Shown here: positions 9,752-48,834 of the stretch, piece by piece
Numbering within the stretch: the first letter of the stretch is position 1
Layout: each line of letters opens with the position of its first letter
Origin: Pontibacter fetidus
Lineage (GTDB): Bacteria; Bacteroidota; Bacteroidia; Cytophagales; Hymenobacteraceae
NCBI RefSeq assembly: GCF_010119545.1
Contig: NZ_JAAEAA010000005.1
Coordinates: forward strand, 62,001 to 126,000
Direction: 5' to 3'
DNA: 64,000 nt
The notes under the pieces: model-generated
The model's database searches: none
Told to the model about the DNA's origin: nothing
What the model saw: the letters and a program-made list of their open reading frames with translations, nothing else
Position numbers and translations under genes: made by a program

Positions 9752-9881
9752 GGTGCAGTTAAAAAGTTAGAAAGTTTGTAAGTTAGAAAGTTAAAAAGTT
9801 GTTTTAGGATCTATGATCATCAAATGGTAAGGGTTTTATAGGTCTAATAATTCTCTTTTATCATTATCTGACTTGAAAGAA

Positions 9882-9916
9882 AGACCTAGCAGCGTGCGCA
9901 GCTCCTGCTAGTGTCT
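9882..9916 (+). repeat. CTAG-stem hairpin repeat, single copy
   Basis: AGAC + CTAGCAG (9886-9892), 12-base loop CGTGCGCAGCTC, CTGCTAG (9905-9911), bulged T, GTCT. This matches the loop and layout of the two inverted hairpins at 15121-15216, with a different but still paired stem. Confidence 0.7.
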
Positions 9917-10383
9917 GGTAACTATAACTTTCTTTGTCATCCCGAGCAAAACCGAAGGATCTTATTTGTCCTATAGTTTACTTTGTTGTTATTTCGAACA
10001 ACGTGAGAAATCTATTTCAGCCTATAGTTTGATTCCTTACTCTTCGAACCAAGCTATCCATTCAAACTTCCTTCAATCCTGGGAGCTCTTTAAACCCGTA
10101 GTTTCAATCTAGCTTTGGTGCCCTCACGGCCGGGAGGCCCCGTCTTCGGGCATCGCGCTGCTACCTTCTTGCTATCCTCCTTCGTCGGATTGCCTGCGGC
10201 ACCGCAATAAGTCAAAGGCGCTCAACCCAAAGACTGTGATCAGTTCGATAGCTACTGAAGCTAGAGTTTGAAGCTTCTCGCTTCGGCTTTTATTGTGGCT
10301 GTAGTTTCGAGGGGACAGGTGAACCTGTCCTAATCAATATCGGGAACTATAGACTATAGCTCAAACTATAACTACAATTAAAA

Positions 10384-14507: not shown

Positions 14508-15107
14508 TTGAACAAAGTGAAACATAGATCCGGATTCTGGTTTGCGGTAACGTCGCTGGTAAGCGGCCTGCGGCTTACGTGGCAGCATTTTGTGCGCGCC
14601 AAAAACCGTCGTACTCCGGAATACGTGACCGATAAGAACTACTTTAACCAACCCGACGGCCTGGTAACGCTTACGTACCCTTATGAAGCCATTCCGGTTC
14701 CTGACAACGGCCGTTACCGCCTGCACAACGAGATCGACGATTGTATAGTTTGTGACCTTTGTGCCAAGATCTGCCCGGTTAACTGCATCACGATAGAATC
14801 TGTAAAAGCGACGGAAGAGATAGGGCTAACCTCCGACGGAACCAAGAAACGCCTGTACGCACCGGTTTTTGATATTGACATGGCTAAATGCTGCTACTGC
14901 GGCCTGTGTACCACCGTCTGCCCAACCGACTGCCTGACCATGACGCCGGTTTATGATTTCGCAGAAGTAGATATCAAAAACATGATCTACCATTTTACAG
15001 ACCTGTCGCCGGAGCAGGCTGAGGAGAAAAAGCAATTGCTGGCAAAACAACAGGAAGAAATGGCAGCAGCCAAGGCAGCGGCACTCGCAGCAAGAAAGCA
15101 AGGGTAA
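14508..15107 (+). CDS. nuoI: NADH-quinone oxidoreductase subunit I (2x 4Fe-4S)
   Basis: Peripheral-arm ferredoxin-like subunit passing electrons toward quinone. Two classical 4Fe-4S motifs are present: C79-C82-C85-C89P (in CIVCDLCAKICP) and C128-C131-C134-C138P (in CCYCGLCTTVCP). The C-terminal 35 residues form a charged Ala/Gln/Lys-rich helix typical of Bacteroidota versions. No ATG is available: the frame opens with TTG at 14508, with a GTG alternative three codons later at 14517. The initiator is therefore non-standard, and weak translation of this subunit is possible. A REPIN-like hairpin pair follows it. Confidence 0.93.
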   Translation: MNKVKHRSGFWFAVTSLVSGLRLTWQHFVRAKNRRTPEYVTDKNYFNQPDGLVTLTYPYEAIPVPDNGRYRLHNEIDDCIVCDLCAKICPVNCITIESVKATEEIGLTSDGTKKRLYAPVFDIDMAKCCYCGLCTTVCPTDCLTMTPVYDFAEVDIKNMIYHFTDLSPEQAEEKKQLLAKQQEEMAAAKAAALAARKQG

Positions 15108-15120
15108 AGAGGTAAAGAAA

Positions 15121-15216
15121 AGACCTAGCGGCGTGCGCAGCTCCCGCTAGTGTCTGATGCTACGAAGCAAAGCCTTAAACCAGACGCTCGTAGGAGCTAC
15201 GCACACTACGAGGTCT
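15121..15216. repeat. REPIN-like pair of inverted hairpins inside the nuo cluster
   Basis: Hairpin 1: AGAC, CTAGCGG (15125-15131), loop CGTGCGCAGCTC, CCGCTAG (15144-15150), T bulge, GTCT. Hairpin 2, inverted: AGAC, G bulge, CTCGTAG (15187-15193), loop GAGCTACGCACA, CTACGAG (15206-15212), GTCT. Stems differ between copies but always pair, and loops are nearly constant. Only 26 bases separate the two hairpins. The whole is about 96 bp between nuoI and nuoJ. Confidence 0.8.
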
Positions 15217-15246
15217 TTTGAGAAACGATAAAAGTAAACTATAAAA

Positions 15247-15759
15247 ATGCTTTTCTACATCTTCGCTATACTGGCTATAGTTTCGGGAGCTTACATGGTG
15301 CTGACGCGTAACCTGCTGTATGCTGGTTTTTCGTTACTGATCGTGCTGCTGAGTATAGCCGGTATTTATGTGCTGCTGTTCGCTGATTTTATAGCTGTTA
15401 CCCAACTGATGGTGTACGTGGGCGGCGTACTGGTGCTGATACTTTTCGGTATTATGCTGAGCAGCCGTGTGCAGGATAAATCGGTGCTTTCGGAGAACGT
15501 GAATACGGTTTGGGGTACGCTGGTGGCCGGGCTTATAGTTGTAGGATTGAGCTATAGTATACTTAAATCAAATATCAGTTCGCTGTTGTGGCTGCAAACT
15601 ATGGAAGTTGATGTGCTTGGAGATCAAAAAAGTACGGTGCAAATGATCGGTATTAAACTAATGACGGATTTTGTACTGCCATTTGAGATTGCCTCGCTGC
15701 TGCTGCTGATCGCCCTGATGGGAGCCGCTTACATTGCCACCGACAAACAGAAAACATAG
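15247..15759 (+). CDS. nuoJ: NADH-quinone oxidoreductase subunit J
   Basis: Small membrane subunit of complex I, 170 residues with five helices. The family segment ADFIAVTQLMVYVGGVLVLILFGIML (about 42-67) is clearly present; this is the helix with the pi-bulge that couples quinone reduction to pumping. The ATG at 15247 lies 30 bases after the REPIN-like element, and the stop is two bases before nuoK. Confidence 0.96.
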   Translation: MLFYIFAILAIVSGAYMVLTRNLLYAGFSLLIVLLSIAGIYVLLFADFIAVTQLMVYVGGVLVLILFGIMLSSRVQDKSVLSENVNTVWGTLVAGLIVVGLSYSILKSNISSLLWLQTMEVDVLGDQKSTVQMIGIKLMTDFVLPFEIASLLLLIALMGAAYIATDKQKT

Positions 15760-48641: not shown

Positions 48642-48690
48642 GTCTGGATCAGGATTTTGAGGATTGATTAGAATTTGCAGGATTTTTAAA

Positions 48691-48779
48691 CCTCACAGCG
48701 TCTTTAAGACCTGTGAGTGTTTCTTAACGGCGAAATGGCTGTACGTTAGACACTCACAGGTTTTGAAAACACTGTGAGG
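48691..48779. repeat. CTCACAG inverted hairpin pair between ppk1 and ppx
   Basis: Arm 1 (48691-48720) is CCTCACAG-CGTCTTTAAGAC-CTGTGAGTGT. Arm 2 (48750-48779) is its inverse with the inner GTCTT/AAGAC changed to GTTTT/AAAAC, so pairing is kept. TAACG/CGTTA (48725-48729 and 48744-48748) also pair in the spacer. Confidence 0.75.
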
Positions 48780-48834
48780 TCTTTAACTATAGTATAGATC
48801 CTAGTTCTATAACTATAACCTAACACCCAACCTT

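Follow-up and report, generated by a model that had tools for sequence, protein, structure and literature searches.

A hairpin doublet between nuoI and nuoJ of Pontibacter fetidus as a REPIN-like element whose cognate RAYT was probably lost

The two inverted hairpins between nuoI and nuoJ of Pontibacter fetidus are most probably a non-autonomous REPIN-like element whose cognate RAYT has since been lost in this lineage, a reading to which we assign a probability of about 0.86. According to this reading, a cognate RAYT (Y1/HUH REP-associated tyrosine transposase) would recognize the hairpins in their folded single-stranded form; it may bind them while the DNA is unpaired, as on the lagging-strand template, nick the hairpin feet and help copies to spread; the complementarity of the stems would be maintained because the enzyme needs the fold. 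The RAYT gene was apparently lost when a second, different RAYT took its place. Since the cognate gene is gone, the orphaned population, the nuo copy included, is probably no longer replicating and may decay or disappear site by site. In the broad sense, the hairpin family and its RAYT are a variant of the known RAYT/REPIN kind.

Structure and genomic distribution of the hairpin family

The window, i.e. the entire stretch of 64,000 nucleotides that was analyzed, contains the hairpins and flanking genes listed in Table 1; the genes are named after their best NCBIfam models, against which both score below the curated cut-offs. The first-pass annotation had described two hairpins of opposite orientation between nuoI and nuoJ, the sequences of their stems and a third stem farther upstream in the window. 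Orientation and location were confirmed and all three stems matched exactly, and each hairpin has, beyond that description, a 4-bp foot and two single-base bulges. The nuo doublet as a whole is one 39-nt inverted repeat with a complementarity of 77%. The second doublet of the window lies between convergent genes, ppk1 (polyphosphate kinase) and an exopolyphosphatase-like gene.

Table 1. Coordinates of the hairpins and of the genes next to the nuo doublet in the window.
Feature	Position	Strand	Description
Single hairpin of the nuo-doublet family	9882..9916	+	majority stem CTAGCAG/CTGCTAG
nuoI, NADH-quinone oxidoreductase subunit I, 5' of the doublet	14508..15107	+	best NCBIfam models NuoI
Left hairpin of the nuo doublet	15121..15155	+	foot AGAC/GTCT, 7-bp stem CTAGCGG/CCGCTAG, inner stem GTGC/GCTC, triloop GCA, bulges C and T
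Linker separating the hairpins of the nuo doublet	15156..15181	.	contains GCTACGAAGC
Right hairpin of the nuo doublet	15182..15216	-	stem CTCGTAG/CTACGAG, inner stem GTGC/GCTC
nuoJ, 3' of the doublet	15247..15759	+	best NCBIfam models subunit J
Second doublet, left hairpin	48688..48722	+	stem CTCACAG/CTGTGAG, non-GTGC inner-stem type; covariance model 25.4 bits
Second doublet, right hairpin	48748..48782	-	stem CTCACAG/CTGTGAG, inner stem GTTT/AAAC

When folded as single-stranded DNA, the nuo pair and the hairpin at 9882 are predicted to adopt one common shape (z -2.3 to -3.7). The foot AGAC/GTCT is set off from the 7-bp stem by a single bulged base in the 3' arm, and the 7-bp stem from the inner stem by one in the 5' arm. 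The inner stem, G.GC/GC.C, contains a T.T mismatch and encloses a triloop. The RNA of the nuo doublet is predicted to form a single long hairpin (-47.6 kcal/mol, z -5.6), and a mild effect on the nuo transcript is conceivable. A predicted fold of this strength would also suit an intrinsic terminator or an ordinary structured RNA family. We regard this explanation as highly improbable, given that no terminator-like site was detected at 14900-15400, no Rfam family matched the doublet at gathering scores, and the hairpins occur genome-wide on both strands.

The genome contains 55 occurrences of the core GTGCGNAGCTC compared with three of the reversed-pattern control. An AGACC...GTCT foot plus stem is present in 46 of these occurrences; the other nine, without foot and stem, were excluded by eye. 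A covariance model built from the 46 copies returned at least 96 genome matches at E<=1 when 150 of 1722 first-look candidates were scored, and the loci examined comprised 101 model matches at E<=0.01, representing 99 distinct places. The 4.07-Mb genome thus holds at least 99 hairpins of the family, among them nine inverted doublets, the others being single or having a decayed partner. None of 95 hairpin midpoints falls inside an ORF of at least 150 aa, while such ORFs make up 56% of the locus bases. The dispersed family of REPIN-like doublets that the first-pass annotation had proposed is therefore borne out, and the collection of copies with a covariance model, which it had suggested as a check, returned many further copies and not the absence that would have spoken against the proposal.

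Many single copies lie at the border of larger repeats found at several genomic sites, which may have carried some copies along. At window positions 9880-10100, and beside many single copies, CTATAGTT units and TGTCATTCCGAGC...GAGGAATCT palindromes often come next; these palindromes appear similar to CGTC/TGTC-tagged REPs. It is conceivable that all copies spread without a RAYT as passengers of such dispersed intergenic repeats, as TATAGTT units and TGTCATTCCGAGC palindromes follow many single copies for hundreds of bases. However, on inspection by eye, the upstream sides differ and most doublets are free of such repeats; in relatives, moreover, it is the RAYT gene itself that the hairpin adjoins. 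Spread as a passenger is therefore decidedly unlikely.

Alignments of 46 and of 101 copies gave the same family foot, AGACC at the 5' and GCGTCT at the 3' end. Across the 14-pair structure of the set of 46, paired cells amounted to 94.7% compared with 91.1% in shuffled alignments, cells changed on both sides to 22 compared with 5.1, and the covariation score to 0.152 compared with 0.080, none of these values being reached in 500 shuffles, which ignore the relatedness of the copies. Pairs with a double change (4) and further pair types (12) were no more numerous than in shuffles (134 and 136 of 500, respectively). Selection on the fold had been proposed from covarying stems around a constant loop. 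The covariation of the stems stood up to the comparison with shuffles by the first three of these measures; the constancy of the loop was not borne out, since what had been taken for a loop is an inner stem with covariation of its own across the family. The loop had appeared constant in the first set because its sequence had served as the search pattern. Among 227 hairpins from P. fetidus and relatives that were chosen by foot and stem alone, the inner-stem pairs were GTGC/GCTC (90), GTCT/AGAC (23), GTCC/GGTC (12) and GTTT/AAAC (11); the underlying loci came mostly from model searches favoring GTGC, and some of the 227 hairpins look like chance matches, 17 of them lacking the stem-closing G.

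The cognate RAYT in relatives and its loss

The hairpin model was searched against 59 genomes, comprising P. fetidus and 58 relatives, of which 37 belong to the genus and 22 to other genera of the order. Matches were obtained in 34 genomes, all of them within the 37 of the genus, and none in the 22 from other genera. Inverted hairpins approximately 690 bases apart led us to look for a gene between them. In two genomes (G032 and G033), such a gene encodes a 204-aa RAYT-like protein that scores 66 and 65 bits against the NCBIfam model REP_Tyr_transpos, below its cut-off of 80. Against Pfam Y1_Tnp, the RAYT scores 18 bits (cut-off 23), and one of three members gave no match. The features of the protein family are nevertheless present below these cut-offs, namely the HUH motif as NHVH, the tyrosine motif as YIHFNP, and homology to TnpA-REP, an alignment of nine RAYTs matching that of E. 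coli (4er8) with E=1.8e-5.

In a search of the 59 genomes with the protein of a relative, nine intact copies of the RAYT were found in eight of the 37 genus genomes, and broken or partial copies in six further ones; the P. fetidus genome gave no match at E<=1e-8. None of the nine intact genes is without a flanking hairpin: seven have it on both sides, and those of G008 and G012 have a model match on a single side. A hairpin was also located near each of the 15 best RAYT loci from named genomes (Pontibacter, Rufibacter, Sabulibacter, Botryobacter), several of which are genomes already in the set of 59, and near none of the next 12 loci in that ranking, which are farther kin. The hairpin thus adjoins RAYTs of Rufibacter and Sabulibacter as well. 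Among 23 loci of other RAYT-like genes from P. fetidus and five related genomes, 19 had no match to the hairpin; of the remaining four, two represent the stub locus (see below) and the other two are weak or distant matches. A distant broken RAYT (L181, contig C104 of G034; 38% identity, several stops) has weak hairpin matches on both sides. A RAYT gene flanked by the hairpin, for which the first-pass annotation had advised to look, accordingly exists in relatives as a low-copy gene with the same hairpin on its flanks, whereas P. fetidus itself retains a stub only.

The median number of hairpins per genome was 29.5 with an intact RAYT (n=8), 9.5 with a broken one (n=6, G034 with its distant broken RAYT being grouped here) and 4.0 with none (n=23); the comparison of intact with no RAYT yielded a one-sided p=0.008, which ignores relatedness. 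P. fetidus, G001, G018, G019 and G031 hold 29-83 hairpins with no RAYT match at E<=1e-8, and one genome with an intact RAYT holds only six. From these hairpin-rich genomes without the gene and the hairpin-poor genome with it, gene and copy number appear to be loosely coupled.

The stem types follow the RAYT lineages: AGCAG occurs in G033 and G027, CGTAG in two Rufibacter, and CACAG in a second lineage. This is of relevance for another possible origin of the stem complementarity. In hairpin-templated (quasipalindrome) copying, one arm is corrected from the other, which would give the same pattern as selection on the fold. Two observations agree with it, namely that, among the 46 copies, no more pairs showed a double change than in shuffles and that the nuo copy of G001 has a half-way C.A where others have A-T or C-G. 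However, stem types that go with RAYT lineages across species, and an inner 4-bp stem that varies as separate modules, fit recognition by the enzyme better than the copying of arms. We therefore prefer recognition of the fold by a RAYT and hold arm copying to be a doubtful, if serious, alternative.

In G033, the cognate RAYT lies between nrdA (ribonucleotide reductase) and an ompA-like gene and has the stem CTAGCAG at both ends. The same interval of P. fetidus harbors a different RAYT of 172 aa with GTTGGTG/CACCAAC palindromes, and the cognate RAYT is reduced to its last 18 codons, which are 78% identical to residues 186-203 of the G033 protein. The stub is accompanied by one hairpin copy, and the alignment continues into the ompA-side flank of G033. 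In G031, the sister of P. fetidus in the nuo tree, approximately 32 such codons are left, and the rival RAYT present there is closely similar. The palindrome of the rival RAYT, TTGGTGNNNNCACCAA, occurs at eight sites in the P. fetidus genome, two of them at the stub locus, compared with one site for the control. Relative to nrdA, the stub (L034 3032-3085) and the G033 gene (L160 1138-1752) have opposite directions. The reversed direction of the stub suggests an inversion between the flanking hairpins, i.e. that the cassette flipped between its own inverted hairpins. The arrival of the rival RAYT may have caused the loss of the cognate gene; that it was inserted into that gene is a guess, because no N-terminal remnant of the cognate RAYT was found at the stub locus. 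The genus as a whole offers a series of genomes in which the RAYT is intact, broken, reduced to a stub, or replaced by a rival.

Four other RAYT-like genes are present in P. fetidus (L051, L052, L053 and L034 on contigs C2, C28, C22 and C33), each with other palindromes close by, and the gene on C33 is the one that occupies the place of the cognate RAYT. These four PF01797 genes were considered as candidates for the cognate RAYT and rejected, as three are accompanied by other palindromes and the fourth by the GTTGGTG/CACCAAC palindromes, and none was matched at E<=1e-8 by the RAYT protein of a relative.

The nuoI-nuoJ junction across the genus

The 37 nuoI-nuoJ junctions of the genus were assigned to classes by eye. 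Eight carry the hairpin family, seven of them with two hairpins (the second one of G003 being weak) and G020 with one. Five others carry an unrelated palindrome on GCGCAAGCG, a fragment of which is found in G036; nine have a longer gap that apparently holds an ORF; and 15, including close relatives, contain none of these, the junction of G031 among them showing an apparent hairpin remnant. A junction palindrome built on GCGCAAGCGTCCGCTTGTGC was noted in G035, G013, G014, G012 and G036 (L136, L138, L141, L150 and L146), where it forms an inverted pair in three cases. Hairpins at every nuoI-nuoJ junction, which had been named in advance as an outcome unfavorable to a spreading family, are not what the genus displays, since 29 of the 37 lack them.

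The left nuo hairpin has G-C at the second-last stem pair in three of five GTG-type copies at this junction, compared with none of 124 elsewhere (Fisher p=2.9e-5, relatedness ignored). As nuo copies from different species have this rare pair in common, one old shared insertion is the most likely origin of the nuoI-nuoJ copy, which judging from the junctions has often been lost or replaced. The proposal that the doublet had been inserted between nuoI and nuoJ implies a local event of recent date; the occurrence of the family at eight of the 37 junctions together with the rare pair speaks against this, and a recent insertion, which we had considered, is thereby made unlikely. Another pair of the left hairpin is A-T in G000 and G008, C-G in G021 and G003, and C.A in G001. 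In the aligned sequences, this is a compensated change in place, as either selection on the fold or arm copying would yield. The nuo copies of G027 and G025, with their CACAG stems, may be separate insertions. On the gene tree of nuoI plus nuoJ, eight changes are required for eight carriers, no fewer than with shuffled labels; with the carriers scattered in this way, orthology rests on the common rare pair and not on the tree.

We also asked which hairpin sites are common to P. fetidus and its relatives. Plain blastn of P. fetidus against 30 loci of G008 gave nuo as the sole common site; against G031, it was swamped by dispersed repeats (673 one-sided pairs). A comparison of coding flanks, covering 30 of 51 hairpin loci of G008, 30 of 53 of G001 (the nuo locus having been added by hand) and 30 of 31 of G031, yielded one, two and ten candidate common sites besides nuo, respectively. 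The idea of nuoI-nuoJ as a uniquely retained site is weakened by these further candidates.

Nevertheless, the doublet could have been kept because an RNA hairpin tunes the operon, either by stabilizing or processing the transcript or by uncoupling nuoI from nuoJ. Such a role would be in line with the presence of this family at eight junctions and of an unrelated palindrome at five more, with a left hairpin whose rare pair is found in distant members and whose pairing survived a change from A-T to C-G, and with the predicted RNA fold described above. In contrast, 15 of the 37 genomes do without either palindrome family or a long insert, and nine have a longer gap in its place. The frequent absence from the junction argues that the doublet is not essential. 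Nor was a terminator-like signal seen in the region. The nuoH-nuoI gap is equally variable (66-1193 nt in the 30 genomes measured), whereas the nuoJ-nuoK gap is 2-7 nt where measured. The nuoH-nuoI gap is therefore another insertion-tolerant place in the nuo operon, and tolerance accounts for the nuo site without a host function. Taken together, we consider operon tuning unlikely and favor an orphaned REPIN-like element at a tolerant site.

Comparison with known systems and wider kin of the RAYT

The system shares several traits with the REP and REPIN elements of E. coli (BIMEs) and Pseudomonas as treated in the relevant passages of PMC6006769, namely many short intergenic palindromes, inverted doublets, a low-copy Y1/HUH gene flanked by the hairpin, and subfamilies mixed in one genome. 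It differs from them in that the Pontibacter hairpin lacks a GT[AG]G foot, having AGACC at the 5' and GCGTCT at the 3' side instead, and in that it contains two nested covarying stems with single-base bulges. The Pontibacter RAYTs (NH.H, F[QE], YIH.NP) have a phenylalanine where the GTAG-associated subclasses have a conserved tryptophan. Classification as a GTAG-tagged REP was rejected, as the alignments of 46 and 101 copies have a foot of AGACC/GCGTCT and not GTAG/GTGG.

REPs tagged with CGTC, with Bacteroidetes among the hosts, are reported in the text of PMC3733652 (Di Nocera et al. 2013) to lack a dedicated transposase. Like these, the Pontibacter element occurs as a doublet in a Bacteroidetes host and ends with GCGTCT; unlike them, it has the GTC of CGTC paired at the 3' foot, a longer hairpin and a flanking position at a RAYT. 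The CGTC-tagged class, going by that text, is defined by an unpaired CGTC, a stem of 8-9 bp, a loop of 4-5 nt and no transposase; the Pontibacter hairpin, by its structure and its flanking position at a RAYT, does not belong to it. The TGTCATTCCGAGC...GAGGAATCT palindromes beside many single copies look like CGTC/TGTC-tagged REPs, judging in part from PMC3733652. The same text introduces TIRtrons (TIRYT), which are RAYT-like genes flanked by non-GTAG inverted repeats, some of them self-complementary and moderately repeated. The Pontibacter gene likewise has non-GTAG inverted repeats on its flanks. Working like a REPIN, while being neither a GTAG nor a CGTC REP, the Pontibacter system is nearest in kind to these TIRtrons as far as they are described there. 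The section of PMC3733652 concerned names neither Pontibacter nor these sequences, and an overlap with some of its TIR families is possible. A full-text search of open-access publications for this hairpin family, including CCTGTCAGGT, revealed none on it among the titles and abstracts listed.

With regard to the enzyme, the table of PMC6006769 lists FQ in place of the W motif for TnpA-Y1 subclass 2.1 (RAYT group 1) only, with HUH motifs NHVH or NH[YF]H. The features given there for this subclass are FQ or W[EQ], YIELNP or Y[IV]HLNP, and a long C-terminal domain. The Pontibacter RAYT agrees in FQ and in the HUH motif, and its YIHFNP is close but not equal; no C-terminal domain scored above the Pfam cut-off in the three members scanned. 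It differs from the subclass 2.1 genes described there in being flanked by hairpins and in its length of approximately 204 aa versus a median of 238. No REP-like sequences were found with subclasses 2.1 and 2.3 according to the relevant passages of PMC6006769, which also mention "atypical secondary structures" at the Bacteroidetes subclass 2.6. The motifs of two of the other RAYTs of P. fetidus (L052 and L053) are, by eye, near that subclass. Hairpin repeats without a GTAG foot are now joined to a branch of RAYTs, in contrast to the reports, within these portions of the two sources, of the motif-nearest subclass 2.1 without REPs (PMC6006769) and of CGTC-type repeats without an enzyme (PMC3733652). 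Moreover, the natural set of stem types, inner-stem types and RAYT lineages makes the recognition code of enzymes acting on single strands testable.

When the RAYT alignment was used to scan named genomes, it returned 157 encoding stretches, of which the best 80 loci were kept and 79 tested, L227 being left out. An inverted repeat common to both flanks was found at 55 of these 79 loci, at a threshold set lower than in the first pass, compared with 0 of 30 nuoI controls and 0 of 36 genes of the window. A foot of the form RRACC...G(Y)GTY was recognized at 24 of the 55 by a simple pattern that misses many of the Pontibacter ones. The loci belong to Bacteroidota, Chloroflexota and others, and the motifs of their proteins are mostly NHFH, F[QE] and YIH.NP.

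These observations may be combined into a broader reading, which we put at even odds as a whole. A RAYT branch with phenylalanine for tryptophan (NH.H / F[QE] / YIH.NP), distributed over Bacteroidota, Chloroflexota and others, would keep its own class of non-GTAG REP-like hairpins, the populations of which can be orphaned by a rival RAYT. Its code would be RRACC-(N5)-GGTYY placed head to tail, the halves being quasi-palindromic and the whole palindromic. In the Pontibacter form, single extrahelical pyrimidines would have been added, along with exchangeable modules of stem and inner stem that follow the RAYT lineages, and the nuo copy and its like would be relics that long retain their pairing after being orphaned.

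The sequence RRACCTGACAGGTYT occurs 4-65 times per strand in nine genomes with kin of the RAYT, selected for an observed or suspected copy of the repeat next to their RAYT, compared with 0-1 occurrences of the control. Palindromes of RRACCTGACAGGTYT were observed in several to many copies in the Chloroflexota and Bacteroidota genomes of L235, L240, L245, L249, L251, L253, L259, L260 and L262, in several of these genomes directly beside a RAYT of the F type.
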